A DNA stretch of 41,800 nucleotides, taken from Chitinophagaceae bacterium (GTDB lineage Bacteria > Bacteroidota > Bacteroidia > Chitinophagales > Chitinophagaceae). Position numbers and translations under genes: made by a program. The DNA lies in contig JANWIY010000151.1 in the NCBI GenBank assembly GCA_025449645.1, forward strand, positions 1-41,800. The letters are read 5' to 3'. The notes below the pieces were generated by a model. The model saw nothing but the letters and a program-made list of their open reading frames with translations. It did no database searches and was not told the origin of the DNA. The number at the start of each line of letters is the position of its first letter. Position 1 is the first letter of the stretch. Positions 9,293-32,845 of this stretch are shown piece after piece.

Positions 9293-9357
9293 GTTGACGG
9301 TTGACATACTTCATTTGCGAATCCCAGCAGGGGATCCGTCAACAGTCAACCGTCAAC
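9293..9357. repeat. Heptad-arm inverted element 1 (GTTGACG type)
   Basis: GTTGACGGTTGAC (9293-9305) is perfectly complementary to GTCAACCGTCAAC (9345-9357), 13 base pairs with a 39-base loop. The right side holds three seven-base units in a row (GTCAACA, GTCAACC, GTCAACT, from about 9338). The loop contains TGCGAATCC, also present in the elements at 12.6 and 15.7 kb. It lies just 3' of the ABC permease, so a terminator or RNA-stabilising role is plausible, or it may be a small dispersed repeat family. Confidence 0.75.
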
Positions 9358-9469
9358 TATTCTAACTGGCTGTTCCCCATCAAGCTAAGCTTTTTCCCGC
9401 TTTTGGAAACCCTATCCAAATCGCAATTTCACGATCTGAAAACATCCTTTTATTAAACAAACTCGTACC

Positions 9470-9495
9470 TTGATCCGGGGAGTTTCATAATTTTG
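9470..9495 (+). promoter_or_regulatory. Promoter-like boxes before the 111-residue gene
   Basis: TAATTTTG (9488-9495) matches the TAnnTTTG -7 box, with a TTG at 9470-9472, 15 bases upstream, closer than usual. The -7 box ends 13 bases before the ATG at 9509, implying a very short leader. Confidence 0.35.
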
Positions 9496-9508
9496 GCACG
9501 AATTTTTT

Positions 9509-9844
9509 ATGACTATGGGTATGAACGGCAAGGGCAGGTATAAGTTTAAGGTAATCAACGGAATTCTTTCCTGGAAAAATGCGGAAATGGAGCGCTATAT
9601 GCCAGTATCTGCAGAGATTCTGACCCGGGTGGTATTGCTGTATGAAAAGGAAATAAAAAACGGTCTTGAGATCTGGAATGAAATAGAAGCTGAACAAAAA
9701 CATACGGTTTCCGAAGTCCATATGAGCGCCCTCTATGAGCAACTTGTAAATTGGATGGAGCATCTCCAGGGAATTTTCGGCGATACGGATCCTTTCCGCG
9801 AGAAAGACAAATGGTCGGAAGACCAACAGATCCATTTAAACTGA
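9509..9844 (+). CDS. Hypothetical protein, 111 residues
   Basis: I do not recognise this protein. It is soluble, with no signal peptide or membrane segment, mostly helical and acidic in the C-terminal half. A segment near 26-60 (AEMERYMPVSAEILTRVVLL) is amphipathic, and a second helix-rich stretch lies at 70-92 (SALYEQLVNWMEHLQGIF). The start at 9509 is the first of three near ATGs (codons 1, 3 and 5) and follows a promoter-like TAATTTTG. Its 3' end overlaps the convergent histidine kinase gene by nine bases. The reading frame uses ordinary codons and has its own promoter-like box, so it is probably real, but no function is offered. Confidence 0.6.
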   Translation: MTMGMNGKGRYKFKVINGILSWKNAEMERYMPVSAEILTRVVLLYEKEIKNGLEIWNEIEAEQKHTVSEVHMSALYEQLVNWMEHLQGIFGDTDPFREKDKWSEDQQIHLN

Positions 9845-11257
9845 ATTCCGGTCAGCGTTTTTCAGAATATTCAGCGAGATGGTGAATTCGGTCCCTTTTC
9901 CAGGCAAACTTAAAGCCTGTATTTTCCCCTTGTGATTCAATATAATATTTTGTGTATTCGTCATCCCGAGTCCGTTTCCCTGCGACTTCGAAGTGAAATA
10001 AGGGTCAAATATCTTAGAAAGCGTTTCTGAATCCATCCCTTTTCCATTATCTCTTATTGTGATCAGGCAGGATCCGTTTGAGGCCGCAGTTTCGACACTC
10101 AAAATGCCATTTTCATCCGGCATGGCTTCAATGGCATTGACAATAATATTTAACAAAGCAATCTTCATTCTGGACCGGTCAACGTTCAGCCAGATAGGAG
10201 AAGGCGTGTATTTTCTTTCTATCTGAACGTGATTGAGCAGGGCTCGGTCAACCGCTTCATTAAGCGATTCATCAACCAATTCATTTACCCTGATTTTTTC
10301 ATATTCCAGTTCAGAGAATTTAGTCGCGTTAAGGAGTTCATTGATCAGCTGGTTAATCCGTTTTGAATTCCGTGATATGATCTCAAGGAAGTTTTTTTTA
10401 TCTCCCGCTGATAAATTACTGTTTTCAAGGTGGGCTGCCGAAAGGTCAATATTGGTGAGAGGATTCCTCACTTCATGGGCAATTACCCGGGCGATCTGAC
10501 CGGTGCTGGTGAATCTTTCCAGGCTCCGGAGTTCAATCAGCTCCCGGTTGGCCAGTGCAAGTTCCGTGATCCGTTTTTCCAGTTGCTTATGATAATCTTC
10601 CGCCTGCATGGTGGCATTCCTTTTTGCACGGCTTTCCATATTGAAAGTGATTAAGGAATATATAATGAGCAGAATGGAAATCATTCCGGCCGCAATAATA
10701 ATACCGAATACAATTTTATTGTTGGAGCCTACTTTTGCCATTCGAATTTCCAGGAGGCTGCTTTCACGATTTTCTATTGACCCCGCGACAAATCTGATGG
10801 AGTCCATCAGTTGTTTACTTTCAAATGCTTTCATCCGGATGGCCTCACTTACTTTAGGCTGGAAGTCTTTGAATGATTGCAGTTGATCCTCAATGATCTG
10901 GTATTTTCTGTCGATCATTCCGTGCAGGGATTCCACACGCTGATATTCCAGCGAATTATCCGCTACGGCGTTGCGCAGGATCTGATAAATGGAATCCACG
11001 TGCTTCCTGCTGGTATAATAGGGCAAGAGGAATTTTTCATCATTCAACATGATATATCCCCTCAATCCGATCTCCGAATCCTTGATATAAGATAAGAGCA
11101 GTTCCAACTTATTCATCACTTCACGTGTATGGTCCACCCATTCGTTCTGTTCACGGAGCTGAACGAGTGAAGTAATGGAAAGAAAATAGGAGAAGAGTAA
11201 TAACAAAGAAGCTATAAAATAGCCACTCCTGATTTTTCTTGGGAAATCAAATTTCAT
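9836..11257 (-). CDS. Membrane sensor histidine kinase with CHASE3-like domain
   Basis: A 473-residue sensor kinase. Membrane helix 1 (about 13-33) and helix 2 (about 181-205) flank a four-helix periplasmic domain with the CHASE3 pattern SEIGLRGYIMLNDEKFLLPY at 61-80. A coiled linker (215-245) leads to the HisKA domain with phospho-acceptor His261 in AHEVRNPL. The ATPase domain has an N box at NIIVNAIEAM (Asn374), G1 DNGKGM (403-408), an F box near FDPYFTSK, and G2 GNGLGM (427-432). It autophosphorylates and passes the phosphate to a response regulator, but none is encoded nearby, so it is an orphan here. The ligand is unknown. It converges with the 111-residue gene (9-base overlap). All catalytic motifs are intact. 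Confidence 0.93.
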   Translation of the reverse strand: MKFDFPRKIRSGYFIASLLLLFSYFLSITSLVQLREQNEWVDHTREVMNKLELLLSYIKDSEIGLRGYIMLNDEKFLLPYYTSRKHVDSIYQILRNAVADNSLEYQRVESLHGMIDRKYQIIEDQLQSFKDFQPKVSEAIRMKAFESKQLMDSIRFVAGSIENRESSLLEIRMAKVGSNNKIVFGIIIAAGMISILLIIYSLITFNMESRAKRNATMQAEDYHKQLEKRITELALANRELIELRSLERFTSTGQIARVIAHEVRNPLTNIDLSAAHLENSNLSAGDKKNFLEIISRNSKRINQLINELLNATKFSELEYEKIRVNELVDESLNEAVDRALLNHVQIERKYTPSPIWLNVDRSRMKIALLNIIVNAIEAMPDENGILSVETAASNGSCLITIRDNGKGMDSETLSKIFDPYFTSKSQGNGLGMTNTQNIILNHKGKIQALSLPGKGTEFTISLNILKNADRNSV

Positions 11258-11361
11258 AAGCTATCGCGGGAAAAGGACGAAGCACTTTAACCGCCGGTAA
11301 CTGAAATTACATAATATTATCCTTAAATTTTAGTGTCAGGGCGCGCATTCTGAAACCCCTA

Positions 11362-12411
11362 TCAAACGAGCAGCATGGCATCTCCATAACTAAAAAACCG
11401 GTATTTATCCTTGATGGCTTTCTTATATGCCTCCATGGTGAGGTCGTACCCCGCAAAAGCGCAAACCATGATAAGGAGACTGGTCTTTGGGAGGTGAAAA
11501 TTGGTAATCAGTGCGTCTGCAATATTAAACTGGTAGGGCGGATGAATAAATGTGTTGGTCCAACCCTCAGAAGGTTTGAGCAATTTCTCGGCAGTAAAAG
11601 AAGATTCCAGCGCGCGCATCGTGGTGGTGCCCACGGAGCAGATCCGGTGGCCCCCAATACGGGCTTTATTCACAATCCTGCATGCTTCATCGTCGATCCT
11701 GTAGTATTCTGCGTCCATCTTGTGCTTGCTGAGATCCTCCACTTCAATCGGACGAAAAGTACCTAATCCCGTATGCAGAGTGGCCTCGGCAAAACGGATC
11801 CCTTTTATCTCCAGACGCTTGATCAGTTCCTTGCTGAAATGAAGTCCGGCCGTGGGCGCAGCCACAGCACCTTCGTGCTTGGCATAAACGGTCTGGTACC
11901 TTTCCTTGTCTTCTTCGTCCGGCTTGCGCTTGATATATTTGGGAAGTGGTGTTTCACCCAGCGTTTCCAGCACCAGTCGGAATTCATCATCGTTTCCATC
12001 CCATAAAAAACGGATTGTACGTCCTCGGCTGGTTGTATTGTCGATCACTTCAGCCACCAACTCGTCGTTGTCGCCAAAATACAGTTTGTTTCCCACCCGG
12101 ATCTTTCTGGCAGGATCCACGATCACATCCCATAATTTGTTCGGCTTATTTAGCTCCCTCAGAAGGAAAACTTCAATCTTGGCGCCCGTCTTTTCTTTTC
12201 GGCCATACATGCGCGCAGGGAATACTTTGGTATTATTGACAACAAATACGTCCTTGTCGTTGAAATATTCCATCACGTCCCGAAAGTGTTTGTTTTCTAT
12301 TTGTCCCGTTTTGCGATGAACAACCATCATCCGGCTGTCTTCTCTCCTTTTGGCTGGGTGCTGGGCAATAAGGTTAAGGGGAAGATCGAATTTGAACTGG
12401 GAAAGCTTCAT
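11362..12411 (-). CDS. queA: S-adenosylmethionine:tRNA ribosyltransferase-isomerase QueA
   Basis: Cytoplasmic enzyme of queuosine synthesis that transfers and rearranges the ribosyl group of S-adenosylmethionine onto 7-aminomethyl-7-deazaguanine in tRNA, giving epoxyqueuosine. At 349 residues it has the normal family length. Recognisable family segments are [20 protein letters not shown] at the N-terminus, [17 protein letters not shown] (about 55-71), [10 protein letters not shown] (about 185-194), [11 protein letters not shown], and [19 protein letters not shown] near the C-terminus. The start ATG at 12411 is the first after an in-frame gap. A promoter with a consensus -7 box lies 125 bases upstream, leaving an unusually long leader. 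Other queuosine genes are not in the window. Identification is secure. Confidence 0.97.
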
Positions 12412-12530
12412 TCAGTCATAATTTAAATAGTTCGCGGTACATGAGTCGAAGGAAGGACGGAATATGACTGATGGTTCAAACCAGGTCTTACGGCACCCGA
12501 TTCGATTCATGTTACGGCATGATTTTACAA
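12412..12530 (-). promoter_or_regulatory. Long, possibly structured 5' leader of queA
   Basis: About 118 bases lie between the predicted transcription start and the queA ATG. The leader holds a direct repeat TTACGGCA (plus strand 12488-12495 and 12512-12519). A perfect 5-bp hairpin TCATG/CATGA is formed at 12507-12522, and a second small hairpin at 12466-12487 has TGGT/ACCA. No preQ1 riboswitch consensus was recognised. A regulatory role is inference only. Confidence 0.3.
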
Positions 12531-12535
12531 GCGTG

Positions 12536-12565
12536 CAAAAGTAGTCAAGAATGTTGAAAATGCAA
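12536..12565 (-). promoter_or_regulatory. Bacteroidota-type promoter for queA
   Basis: Read on the minus strand: TTG (plus-strand 12563-12565), a 19-base spacer, then TACTTTTG (12536-12543), a full match to the TTG-N19-TAnnTTTG pattern known from Bacteroides and Flavobacterium. It is the best promoter match in the window. Confidence 0.6.
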
Positions 12566-12580
12566 TACTCCGCTCCAAAA

Positions 12581-12653
12581 TAGTTGATGGTTGATGGTTG
12601 ATGGCTGTCAGGTGCGAATTCACAACTGAAGTCCATCAACCATCAACTATCAA
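12581..12653. repeat. Heptad-arm inverted element 2 (GTTGATG type)
   Basis: TAGTTGATGGTTGATGG (12581-12597) pairs perfectly with CCATCAACCATCAACTA (12633-12649), 17 base pairs around a 35-base loop. The left arm continues with a third TTGATGG unit and the right arm with TATCAACC, so the arms can slip in register. The loop carries TGCGAATTC, like the loops of the elements at 9.3 and 15.7 kb. The right arm overlaps the 3' end of the ABC ATPase gene and supplies its stop codon. Likely terminator or member of a dispersed palindromic repeat family. Confidence 0.78.
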
Positions 12654-14379
12654 CCTTCAACCCTTTTCCCGGTATCGCATCAATCAAGCTCTTCGTGTAA
12701 GCTGTCTTTGGGTGGCTGTAAACGGTTTCTGCCTCGCCGGTTTCAACGATCCTCCCATTCTCCATCACCATCACGCGGTCGCAGAGGTAACGGATAACCG
12801 AGAGATCGTGGGAAATAAAAACGGCCGTGAATCCAAACTCCCGTTTCAGATCATTGATCAGATTGAGCACCTGGGCCTGAACGCTAACATCCAGCGCAGA
12901 AACGGATTCATCAAACACTACAAAACCGGGACTAAGTGTAAGTGCCCTGGCAATCACGATCCGCTGACGCTGACCGCCCGAAAATTCGTGGGGATAGCGA
13001 CTGAAAACATCCTGTTGCAGGTTCACTTTCTGCAATAGATCCGTTACCTTTTTCTTTCTCTCCAACCGGCTCAGCGAAGGTTCATGAATTCTTAAGGGTT
13101 CTGAAAGTGCGGATCCTACCATCAGCCTTGGATTCAATGAAGAATATGGATCCTGGAATACCATTTGGATATTCTTTCGAAAGGGCCTGAGTTCGGCATC
13201 CGGCATAGCGAGCAGGTCCCGGTTTTCATAACTGATGCTTCCCGAACCCGGCTTGTTCAGCCTCAGCAGCGCCCGGCCCAGGGTTGTTTTTCCACATCCG
13301 GATTCGCCAACCAGGCCGAGGGTTTCTCCTGTAAAAATGTCAAAGCTGGCATCCTGAACAGCTTTGACCCAGTGCTTCTCCCTTCCCAGCCAGGTTTTGC
13401 CGGATGAATACCAGACATCCAGGTTTTTTACACTCACCAATATTTCGGACTTTTTGGGTTCAGGAGCTCCATCATCCAAACTGGCATTGCGTAGAGCAGT
13501 CTCCTGGAATTTTGCGTATTGCTTCTTTCCACCGTTCAGAAAATCGCTTACCACGGGCAGTCTTTCTCCCTTATGATGAAGGATAGGCCGGCAAAGCAAT
13601 AATCCGCGCGTGTAAGGATGTTCAGGATTTGAAAATAATTCTTTTACAGTGCCCGTTTCAACGATCTTGCCGCGGAACATAACCGCGACCCGGTCAGCAA
13701 TATCTGCAACCAAACCCAGGTCATGCGTGATGAACAGCATGCCCATATTTTCCGATTTGCGCAGATCGCGCAACAATTCCAGAATCGTTTTCTGAACAGT
13801 TACATCCAATGCAGTCGTCGGTTCATCGCATATCAAAAGTGCTGGTTTGCAACTGATGGCCATGGCAATCATGACTCGTTGTTTCTGTCCCCCGCTGAGC
13901 TGGTGTGGATATTTATCAAATAGAAGTTCCGGATCAGGCAGCATGACTTTCTTAAATAACTGAAGCACTTCTTCGCGTGCTTCAAACCTGTTGAGTTTCC
14001 GGTGAAGCCTGACCGGTTCCATCACTTGTGCACCGCAGCGCATTACCGGATTAAGAGATACCATCGGCTCCTGAAAGATCATGCCGATGCTATTGCCCCG
14101 GAGGGAACGTATTTCAGGAGGTGCAAGTTTCAGGAGATCAATCGCCTTCATTCCATCGGTCGAAAACCATATTTCGCCCCCGTCGATGCAGGCAGCGTTC
14201 TGCGGGAGCAGTTGAAGAACCGATAGGGCAGTGACGGATTTCCCCGATCCGGATTCCCCGACAACAGCCAGCATTTCACCTGCCTTTAGTACCAGCGAAA
14301 TATTCCGCAGGGCAGGCAGGATTACTCCGCTTGTCCGGAAGGAAAGGGATAAATTATTTATTTGAAGCAGTGGAAGCAA
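12643..14379 (-). CDS. ABC transporter ATPase with two fused nucleotide-binding domains (oligopeptide/dipeptide type)
   Basis: A 578-residue cytoplasmic protein that fuses DppD-like and DppF-like ATPases, as in YejF or GsiA. Half one has Walker A GESGSGKS (41-48), signature LSGGQKQR (161-168) and Walker [13 protein letters not shown] (about 181-192), followed by the OppD-type tail with HPYTRGLL. Half two has Walker A GESGCGKT (358-365), signature FSGGQRQR and Walker [13 protein letters not shown], where DES replaces the common DEP. It would energise peptide or nickel import or export, but permease and binding-protein genes are not adjacent. It starts 10 bases after the AMP nucleosidase stop, so the two are likely co-transcribed. 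The last codons, KVDS and stop, lie inside inverted element 2, meaning the repeat reshaped the C-terminus. Family assignment is firm, substrate inferred only from family. Confidence 0.93.
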
Positions 14380-14389
14380 TCCGTAAATT

Positions 14390-15160
14390 TTAAAAGCGGA
14401 GATGCCTGACCGTTAGTCCTCCGTTGATCAATTGTTTCAGGGAATCAATGCCGATCTTCAGGTGCATTTCTACAAAGCTGTCGGTAACCCGCAGGTCGCT
14501 GTCAGCCGTTTTTACTCCATCGGGAATCATGGGCTGATCACTCACCAGCAGCAGGGCCCCGGTGGGTATTTTATTATAAAAGCCAACGGAGAAAATCGTT
14601 GCAGTTTCCATATCAACTGCATAGGCGCGGATATTCTTCAGGTATTCCTTGAAAGTATCATCATGTTCCCAGATCCGCCGGTTGGTGGTATAAACTGTGC
14701 CCGTCCAATAATCGACCTCATACTCCCGAATCGTGGTTGAAATGGCTTTTTGCAATGCAAATGCCGGAAGGGCCGGTACTTCAGGAGGAAAATAATCATT
14801 GGAGGTTCCTTCGCCGCGGATCGCTGCAATAGGCAGGATCAGGTCCCCCAGCTTATTTCTTTTTTTCAATCCCCCGCATTTACCCAGGAATAAAACCGCC
14901 TTCGGGGAAATAGCAGAAAGCAGGTCAACGATAGTAGCTGCCGTCGGGCTACCCATTCCGAAATTAATGATGGTTATATCTCCGGCCGTTGCGCAGGGCA
15001 TTGGCTTATCCTCTCCCATGACGCGCACGTTGTGCAATTCGGCGAACAGGTGCACATAGTGCGAAAAGTTTGTGAGCAGAATATACTCGCCGAAATTCTC
15101 TAGTTTCTCTCCCGTGTATCGGGGAAGCCAGTTACTGACGATCTCATCTTTGGTTTTCAT
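14390..15160 (-). CDS. amn: AMP nucleosidase (Bacteroidota short form)
   Basis: A 256-residue member of the nucleoside phosphorylase (PNP/UDP) family that hydrolyses AMP to adenine and ribose 5-phosphate in purine salvage. The family core is visible as INFGMGSPTAATIVDLLSAI (about 85-104), LFLGKCGGL, the EGTSNDYFPPEVPALP loop and the substrate-binding AVDMETATIFSVGF segment with its Met-Glu pair. The final part has LLVSDQPMIPDGVKT. The short length lacks the N-terminal regulatory domain of enterobacterial Amn, which is usual for this phylum. The start at 15160 follows a half copy of the GTTGACG repeat. It heads a likely two-gene unit with the fused ABC ATPase. Another nucleoside phosphorylase is the main alternative. 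Confidence 0.88.
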   Translation of the reverse strand: MKTKDEIVSNWLPRYTGEKLENFGEYILLTNFSHYVHLFAELHNVRVMGEDKPMPCATAGDITIINFGMGSPTAATIVDLLSAISPKAVLFLGKCGGLKKRNKLGDLILPIAAIRGEGTSNDYFPPEVPALPAFALQKAISTTIREYEVDYWTGTVYTTNRRIWEHDDTFKEYLKNIRAYAVDMETATIFSVGFYNKIPTGALLLVSDQPMIPDGVKTADSDLRVTDSFVEMHLKIGIDSLKQLINGGLTVRHLRF

Positions 15161-15187
15161 GTACTAATTTTATGGTTGCCGATTATT

Positions 15188-15200
15188 GTTGACGGGTGAC
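15188..15200. repeat. Solitary half of a heptad-arm element
   Basis: GTTGACGGGTGAC differs by one base from the left arm of element 1 (9293-9305) but has no complementary partner or TGCGAAT core nearby. It lies in the divergent gap between the AMP nucleosidase and the HsdR-N-like gene. It may be a decayed copy or a chance match. Confidence 0.3.
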
Positions 15201-15243
15201 TATCATAATCAGCCATTGCGTAAATTTAACAATAACTTCTGCT

Positions 15244-15687
15244 ATGATTAAAATCTATTACCCGCCCTATCCATATAAGATCAAGGAAGAGGAATACGGT
15301 AAAGAATTCATTTTTGATGAACAGCGCAAACAGTGGGTGAGGCTCACCGAAGAAGAGTGGGTGCGTCAGAATTTTACGCAATACCTGCTACAGGTAAAAA
15401 AATATCCTTCCAGTTATATTGCCGTGGAAAAGAAAATGAAACTGGGAGAAATGAACAAGCGATTTGACATCCTGGTCTATAATAAAGCTGCCAAACCCTG
15501 GATGATGATTGAATGCAAAGCAATGCACAGGCCGCTCGACAAAACCGTAATTTGGCAGGCCCTTCACTACAATATTGCCATCCCGGTAAAATACCTCGTC
15601 ATCACCAACGGGCAGGAATGTCATGCTTATAAAAAGGCGGTTTTGGATTTTGAGGAAATGGCGGTTTTGCCTTCGTATGATGAATGA
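15244..15687 (+). CDS. Stand-alone HsdR N-terminal-like protein (PD-(D/E)XK nuclease fold)
   Basis: A 147-residue soluble protein of the 'type I restriction enzyme R protein N-terminal' (HSDR_N_2) family that is widespread in Bacteroidota. The nuclease-fold signature is Asp75 in KRFDILVYN and Glu90-x-Lys92 in MMIECKA, after an N-terminal acidic region; an upstream Glu62 in AVEKKM could complete the site. No motor or methylase domain is present, and no restriction partners are encoded nearby, so it is not a restriction system by itself. The biological role of the family is unknown to me. I chose ATG 15244; the upstream GTG at 15196 would add 16 residues overlapping the half repeat. It converges with the glutamate dehydrogenase gene across inverted element 3. 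Confidence 0.82.
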   Translation: MIKIYYPPYPYKIKEEEYGKEFIFDEQRKQWVRLTEEEWVRQNFTQYLLQVKKYPSSYIAVEKKMKLGEMNKRFDILVYNKAAKPWMMIECKAMHRPLDKTVIWQALHYNIAIPVKYLVITNGQECHAYKKAVLDFEEMAVLPSYDE

Positions 15688-15707
15688 GCGAAAAGGAATT
15701 GTGGATA

Positions 15708-15772
15708 GTATATGGTGGATGGATTTTAGTTTTGGATTCGCAATAGAGATCCATCAACCATCCACCATATAC
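15708..15772. repeat. Heptad-arm inverted element 3 (GGTGGATGG type)
   Basis: GTATATGGTGGATGG (15708-15722) pairs perfectly with CCATCCACCATATAC (15758-15772), 15 base pairs around a 35-base loop. The loop contains GGATTCGCAA, the reverse complement of the TGCGAATCC core in element 1, so this copy is inverted. CCATCAAC units flank the right arm (15751-15758 and 15772-15779), tying it to element 2. It lies between two convergent genes and could terminate both. Confidence 0.75.
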
Positions 15773-15801
15773 CATCAACTTTTTACTCAACCATTTGCCC
15801 C

Positions 15802-32477: not shown

Positions 32478-32544
32478 CTGAAATATTTTTTATTGCAATT
32501 AAAAAACAGGGGATACCGAAAACCTGATCAAAGAGTAGGTAAAA

Positions 32545-32813: not shown

Positions 32814-32845
32814 ATACACAGGCTTGCTTCGGCAAGCCTGTGTAT
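32814..32845 (+). terminator. Strong hairpin with TTCG tetraloop after the peptide gene
   Basis: ATACACAGGCTTGC (32814-32827) pairs perfectly with GCAAGCCTGTGTAT (32832-32845), 14 base pairs closed by TTCG, a very stable loop. TTAAAA follows; the T-run is short. It ends 15 bases before the next gene's ATG at 32861, so it may be a partial terminator or RNA stabiliser that sets a high peptide to downstream-protein ratio. Confidence 0.85.

Follow-up and report, generated by a model that had tools for sequence, protein, structure and literature searches.

We analysed a 41,800-nucleotide stretch of DNA from a Chitinophagaceae bacterium (assembly GCA_025449645.1, contig JANWIY010000151.1, positions 1 to 41,800 of the forward strand; hereafter the window), which contains three palindromic elements whose arms are built mainly from tandem 7-mers. 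They lie where an earlier note, made from the letters of the window alone, had put them. Element 1 (9293..9357) has GTTGACG arms and the loop core TGCGAATCC, with its left arm at 9293..9305 (+) and its right arm at 9345..9357 (+). Element 2 (12580..12654) has GTTGATG arms and the core TGCGAATTC; its left arm, GTTGATG x3, occupies 12583..12604 (+) and its right arm 12633..12654 (+). Element 3 (15701..15779) is a palindrome of mixed vocabulary (GTTGATG/GTATATG/GTGGATG on the minus strand) with the core TGCGAATCC, also on the minus strand, between a left arm at 15701..15722 (+) and a right arm at 15758..15779 (+). The elements as wholes carry no strand, and the arm positions of elements 1 and 3 are those of the inverted-repeat listing. 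Each element is a single long imperfect palindrome of the form (GTTGATG)n-GGA-TGCGAATTCGCA-TCC-(CATCAAC)n, with a perfect stem of 13 bp in element 1 (9293-9305/9345-9357), a perfect stem of 18 bp in element 2 (12580-12597/12633-12650) and a stem of 22 nt at 91% in element 3 (15701-15722/15758-15779; the inner 15 perfect by eye). The loops of the three copies measure 35-39 nt and hold no open reading frame (ORF) of PF05635, the protein family around which the interpretation below is built.

A listing of short-range inverted repeats in the window has 12 entries, of which ranks 1-3 belong to elements 2 and 3 and rank 9 to element 1. RNA folding gave z-scores of -5.0, -9.0 and -5.8 for elements 1, 2 and 3, respectively, and for each of them 0/200 shuffles were as stable. 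None of the three copies is located in a 23S rRNA helix, all of them sitting between protein ORFs; scanning the window against Rfam gave no rRNA match and no family above the gathering score at the elements, with only sub-threshold miRNA-type matches over element 2. The right arm of element 2 supplies the TGA stop of an ABC transporter-like ORF (12643-14379, minus strand), a label that comes from reading the translation of its relative.

That the three palindromes belong to a family was borne out by the covariance-model search that the earlier note had proposed for the genome and its relatives. A model built from 28 copies (R1) returned at least 150 rows from at least 82 distinct places in the own genome (G000, 86% complete), although element 1 is absent among the R1 matches listed for it, and at E 0.01 it matched 20/60 genomes of a family sample, G000 included. 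The same-genus genome G035 gave no R1 match; because at most 71 candidates were scored per genome, such absences are weak evidence. When 33 genomes of the genus were searched with a 6-kb stretch of the window, G000, G073 and G095 each gave 17-21 matches, mostly element-sized, and the others 1-8. The TGCGAAT core itself is seen in three congeners, with weaker model matches elsewhere in the family.

The earlier note had also described a conserved TGCGAAT loop core. Further copies exist, with TGCGAATYC occurring 99 times in the genome compared with 18 times for the reversed pattern, and GTTGATGGTTGATGG with at most two mismatches giving 647 genome matches (overlaps counted) compared with 22. Among 97 of the 99 core matches, heptad arms were present on both sides in 33 (29 distinct places), on one side in 2 and on neither side in 62, which means that palindromes are not the only setting of the core. 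When the 29 copies were stacked on the core, the heptads fell in a fixed phase, 16-22, 23-29, 30-36 and 37-43 nt from the centre, separated by a spacer of ∼8 nt from the centre TGCGAA|TTCGCA; conservation of the core in this stack is by construction because the copies were picked for having it. The TGCGAAT core is the middle of a full palindrome, TGCGAA/TTCGCA, and not a one-sided motif. Long-loop and loopless palindrome variants exist as well; by eye, the long-loop members of the own genome (L276-L281) have the arms and loop ends of the short family around differing middles of ∼70 nt.

The two arms of a copy change together, as had been proposed. Exchanging arms among 28 of the 29 elements (L052 was omitted from the alignment) lowered pairing over the inner 22 bp from 522/616 to 490±7, and 0/20000 permutations were as high as the observed value; over 30 bp the effect was weaker (631 compared with 605±10 of 840; 125/20000 as high). 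In no more than 1 or 2 of the 28 elements is the own arm strictly better than all the others, because the copies resemble one another. Counting pairs over all 42 pairs gave no signal (75.0% paired compared with 74.7% in column shuffles, 159/500 as high), and a covariation score over the same pairs showed a weak excess (18/500 as high). A single dominant consensus and dilution by the loop account for this, and whole-arm exchange tests were used instead. The earlier note had read the concerted change as selection for pairing or arm homogenisation, which is the right dilemma.

At orthologous sites, the palindrome often persists while the 7-mer (sometimes 8-mer) vocabulary of both its arms changes together. 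Much of the window has a co-linear counterpart in G095 (∼77% identity), and contig C145 of the own genome is mostly co-linear with both G095 and G073. Seven C145 places were examined, six of them R1 places and one a CATAACC-type array; a palindrome was found in G095 at 5/7 and in G073 at 5/5 locatable places, one of the latter being a loopless remnant. At C145 15303, the left arm reads GTGGATG-GTATATG-GTGGATA-GTGGATG in G000, GTTGATG-GTATATG-GTGGATG-GTAGATG in G095, and GTTGACG followed by GTTGATG x3 in G073, each with a matching right arm. At C145 293, the outer units are retained in G073 and the inside is a GATTATG array. The G095 orthologue of C145 11174 (L334) is a lone array, GTTGACA x13, and the stretch displayed contains no inverted counterpart. 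By eye, the site of element 3, which lies between convergent genes, carries GTTGACG arms in G073, an 8-mer palindrome in G095, 7-mer palindromes of other vocabulary in G078 and G090, and ordinary GC-rich hairpins in G071, G086, G085 and G097. The G090 palindrome at this site (L313) has arms of ∼80 nt and a score of 81, with heptads inside and non-repeat sequence outside. At the element 1 site, G095 holds ∼6.9 kb of unaligned DNA, and none of the orthologous empty sites of G035 was usable, its gene order being too altered.

Arms were also exchanged between orthologues. Across six orthologous sites with 21 elements, own arms scored a mean of 20.95 compared with 9.88 for cross-species pairings, 0/20000 within-site permutations were as high, and the own arm was strictly best in 16/21 elements. 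The G090 element raises this mean, which is 17.95 without it. With G000, G095 and G073 alone (18 elements), own arms scored 17.7 compared with 12.4 (28/46656 exact permutations as high) and the own arm was strictly best in 13/18. G079 provides a counter-example, scoring only 7 at the element 3 site.

The earlier note had further suggested a search for a partner gene in the form of a RAYT-type transposase. The idea of looking for a partner was a good one, but no RAYT was found (no PF01797 match in the 86%-complete genome), and the gene that fits is PF05635, the 23S rRNA intervening-sequence protein or "four helix bundle protein." The own genome contains four PF05635 genes. L085 is flanked on both sides by heptad arms of window vocabulary (GTGGATG/GTATATG); a vocabulary-specific scan found no arms at L086 and L088 and one arm ∼840 nt off at L087. 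The vocabulary of L088, AAAAAGT, is that of a gene-less palindrome of the same genome (L289). The identity of the protein is firm, with PF05635 and TIGR02436 above cut-off in 6/6 proteins scanned, and solved structures of relatives are available (2gsc, 2rld). The Xanthomonas S23p protein is reportedly a pentamer of four-helix bundles.

PF05635 genes are commonly enclosed by inverted arms of 7-mers or 8-mers, with a vocabulary that differs by locus, in several phyla. We compared the flanks of 113 PF05635 loci, comprising 33 from the own genome and the family sample and the best 80 named loci among the matches listed; 2 had no usable flanks, leaving 111. Complementarity between the two flanks reached a score of 13 or more at 80/111 loci, compared with 39/1500 shuffled pairings and 4/203 control stretches from the same loci, and a score of 15 or more at 60/111 compared with 0/203 control stretches. 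The best arm period among the 80 loci was 7 in 63, 8 in 11 and another value in 6, and the autocorrelation of the flanks peaked at 7 (0.339 compared with 0.259) and 14, with a smaller rise at 8. According to their records, the strong-arm loci include members of the Bacteroidota, Cyanobacteria, Planctomycetes, Hydrogenedentota and Cloacimonadota; the feature common across phyla is the arm architecture. A PF05635 query also matched 24 plasmid records, at least 19 of them cyanobacterial by name, and no phage record. In a separate sample of the best 12 of these 24, 8/12 loci scored 15 or more compared with 6/130 cross pairings (13 or more: 8/12 compared with 12/130), and the best period was 7 in 7/8 of the strong loci. 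Two of the loci (L373 and L374) come from separate plasmids of a single strain and share their arms, which leaves 7/11 as the count of independent loci.

The arms of PF05635 loci diverge in step as well. In 12 orthologous groups with 50 loci, the own-arm sum was 779 compared with 620±26 (0/20000 permutations); in group H the order was reversed (means of 17 for own arms and 18.5 for cross arms), and in group I the difference was small (24.5 compared with 23.0). At one Flavobacterium site, between the same two genes, PF05635 has differing arm sequences in six species (the arms of L230 and L231 assessed by eye), and the gene is under purifying selection there, with dN/dS of 0.05-0.19 in 13/15 pairs; dS is saturated in two pairs and exceeds 1 in several. 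The arms thus turn over around a protein that is itself conserved. At L231 (F. reichenbachii), the 3' end of PF05635 and the right arm are partly duplicated in tandem. The 5' arms of PF05635 loci contain stops in all three frames in 34/80 cases compared with 17.7±3.0 in unit permutations, and the 3' arms in 10/80; the test is approximate because 7-nt blocks were applied to 8-mers too, and the all-frame stops may be a secondary effect. These 5' arms are also rich in G (G>C in 75/80), but since the palindromes of G078, G079 and G090 at the element 3 site begin, by eye, with a C-rich arm, no rule was built on this.

Consistent with an association that extends to gene-less copies, PF05635 was present in 19/20 R1-matching genomes of the family sample, the own genome among them, and in 26/40 lacking such a match (Fisher p 0.012). 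A vocabulary-free scan for strict periodic palindromes found 20 in 600 kb from eight PF05635-bearing relatives (14 of period 7 and 6 of period 8), 0 in 525 kb from seven PF05635-free relatives and 0 in shuffled sequence. For gene-less palindromes the comparison between bearing and free genomes gave a Mann-Whitney p of 0.022, and the per-genome test is modest because only 4/8 bearing genomes contribute. At a laxer threshold the counts were 31 and 0 (p 0.0096). The unselected stretches of the own genome together with the window held 2 strict cases in 201.8 kb. By eye, the sampled palindromes of G021 and G055 share units with PF05635 loci of the same genomes (L108 and L095, respectively), and those of G009 have no units in common with L115.

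Overall, we estimate a probability of about 0.6 that the three palindromes of the window belong to a class of hairpin elements in which some members carry a PF05635 gene and others, like these three, carry none. What defines the class is architecture and not sequence: a loop flanked by two arrays of tandem 7-mers (8-mers in fewer cases) in inverted orientation. The arms are probably kept complementary by slippage combined with arm-templated copying. New unit variants would spread along one arm through replication slippage. Quasipalindrome correction would then carry them to the opposite arm, with the nascent strand used as template once single-stranded DNA has folded into the hairpin; for imperfect palindromes, templating by the nascent strand has been described (PMC7202029). 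We infer that PF05635 acts on the hairpins: the protein would bind the hairpin, as RNA or as extruded DNA, and might help it to persist or spread, gene-less copies included, in trans. The elements would settle at gene ends, where they may double as translation stops or RNA 3' structures. This reading offers a first testable connection between the PF05635 gene and unexplained heptad repeats, with a concrete binding partner to test, and the orthologous sites, which record two arms changing in step, are a clean setting in which to distinguish compensatory selection from arm-templated copying.

Several observations weigh against this reading. One genome (G017) has R1 matches without PF05635, and 4/8 bearing relatives have no strict palindrome in the sampled stretches, among them two genomes with 14 PF05635 copies and a third with 16. 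The sensitivity of the strict scan is low, as it missed elements 1 and 3 and found none in 60 kb of G095, and the laxer threshold admits one case of period 9 and, in the own genome, one of period 12. The comparison of bearing and free genomes ignores phylogeny, and most of the PF05635-free stretches are contig starts. Among the PF05635 loci, 31/111 score below 13, and the 111 are not independent because many are orthologous, with L111 and L146 being one locus. At C145 12704, the orthologous arms are interchangeable, and C145 3521 and 11174 were left out of the exchange of arms, neither having yielded an orthologous palindrome. Finally, PF05635 could have inserted into pre-existing palindromes.

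The last point leads to the alternative that survives best, although we consider it rather doubtful: the link may be passive, with PF05635 inserts landing in palindrome loops or sharing insertion-tolerant sites and the protein doing nothing to the palindromes. The gene is missing from F. fluvii at the Flavobacterium site where six other species have it, and a 90-nt spacer containing a different hairpin lies there instead, as this alternative would have it. PF05635 also lies between linked genes, namely nrdB/nrdA (L368), cas6/cas4 (L365) and two secretion genes (L366) on plasmids and gmk/nadD (as annotated) in F. columnare, and the plasmid neighbourhoods look like insertion between such genes; 18 PF05635 genes have already been reported in cas loci (PMC3936711), and intervening sequences (IVSs) replace helix tips in rRNA (PMC4990558). 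What argues against a passive link is that the gene-bearing arms are arrays of 7-mers or 8-mers in very different phyla, and that, in the samples, palindromes and PF05635 tend to occur together, albeit to a modest degree.

A second alternative, which we regard as unlikely, holds that the palindromes are terminators or RNA 3' stabilisers useful to the host, with arms covarying by compensatory mutation under selection for pairing. The predicted hairpins are stable, the element 3 site carries GC-rich hairpins in some congeners (by eye), and among 52 family members an ORF 3' end adjoins in 42 (median 5 nt, 40/42 within 60 nt), with the stop codon of the neighbour inside the element in 11/52. However, neighbouring genes were tandem in 29, convergent in 13 and divergent in 10 of the 52, compared with a background of 136/54/53 of 243, to which the divergent share is close (heuristic ORFs; elements without an ORF within 600 nt on either side were left out). 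The statement in the earlier note that all copies lie just 3' of genes is correct for the three window copies but does not extend to the family, given the 10/52 between divergent ORFs. T-tracts occur at 21/96 arm ends (22%), slightly above the 14% at random sites, and 75/96 arm ends have none. In addition, the whole repeat vocabulary changes, and pairing as such needs no periodicity of 7 or 8 nt. As the identity of the family, an intrinsic terminator is therefore poorly supported, given the divergent pairs and the T-tract frequency, although single copies may still terminate; termination may perhaps be a local use, which does not explain the class.

It is very improbable that the palindromes are MITE-like remnants of DNA transposons: inverted repeats do enclose variable loops, and long-loop and loopless variants occur, but there is no fixed terminal inverted repeat and the terminal units vary among copies and orthologues. 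Least credible of all are REP/REPIN-type non-autonomous elements moved by RAYT or another Y1 transposase, since, for all that these are many-copy dispersed intergenic palindromes, G000 has no PF01797 match at 86% completeness and arm sequence is unconserved among copies and species, though the loop centre is conserved. The list of roles proposed in the earlier note can thus be shortened, in that RAYT mobility finds no support and termination does not hold generally.

The closest known systems are the IVS elements of 23S rRNA and the cyanobacterial STRR hairpins. In the IVSs of Leptospira and Coxiella, a PF05635 (S23p/IVP) ORF lies within complementary stem-forming ends, and PF05635/S23p proteins are without known function (PMC4990558). 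Complementary stem-forming ends are likewise present in the window elements and the PF05635 loci; an ORF of this kind is absent from the three window copies and lies between the arms in L085 and many relatives. The present loci differ from the IVSs in their intergenic position between protein genes, in arms made of 7-mer or 8-mer arrays and in having gene-less relatives dispersed through the genome. STRR (short tandemly repeated repetitive) sequences are usually 7-bp tandem repeats capable of forming hairpins, and their function is reported to be unknown (PMC2670836). The elements described here likewise contain tandem 7-bp units that can fold into a hairpin, although the host is not a cyanobacterium, and, unlike the loci here, STRRs are not said to enclose PF05635 in the accessible text of PMC2670836. 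REP/REPIN sequences are dispersed intergenic palindromes with a possible partner gene, from which the present elements differ in that no Y1 transposase was found and only architecture is conserved. LTRR repeats and the heptads of tRNA-Leu introns form part of the same background. PF05635 also resembles the diversity-generating retroelement (DGR) accessory protein Avd, with 4/6 proteins matching Pfam bAvd and 4/6 NCBIfam Avd, all below cut-off; the relation is distant, and the similarity has been noted before (PMC10053308).

A broader version of our reading is tentative, and we would put it at somewhat less than an even chance. In it, PF05635, as a small pentameric four-helix-bundle protein, would read the stem architecture with its 7- or 8-nt rhythm, and not the sequence, in an undescribed cross-phylum class of hairpins and drive both arm-to-arm copying and spread to new sites; the window palindromes, the STRR hairpins and the 23S rRNA IVSs would all be forms of a single system that lack the gene, have degenerated or reside in rRNA. 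No report linking PF05635 with heptad inverted repeats appeared in the accessible open-licence literature, and an earlier description elsewhere is possible; the association is not stated in the accessible parts of PMC10053308, PMC8700078, PMC5524665, PMC2670836, PMC2858038, PMC7202029, PMC10910872, PMC3936711, PMC11637426, PMC5787105 or PMC4990558.

Three other features of the window deserve mention. The intergenic segment 12420-12545, upstream of a queA-like ORF (11362-12411, minus strand), is conserved in several congeners and may be a structured RNA; it contains a 16-nt sub-threshold match to the Rfam queA RNA (19 bits compared with a cut-off of 52.6). The sole Rfam match above the gathering score in the window is a DUF805b RNA (RF02914) at 32506-32541 (+). 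At 32814-32845 lies a perfect palindrome of 14 bp with a 4-nt loop, ATACACAGGCTTGC.

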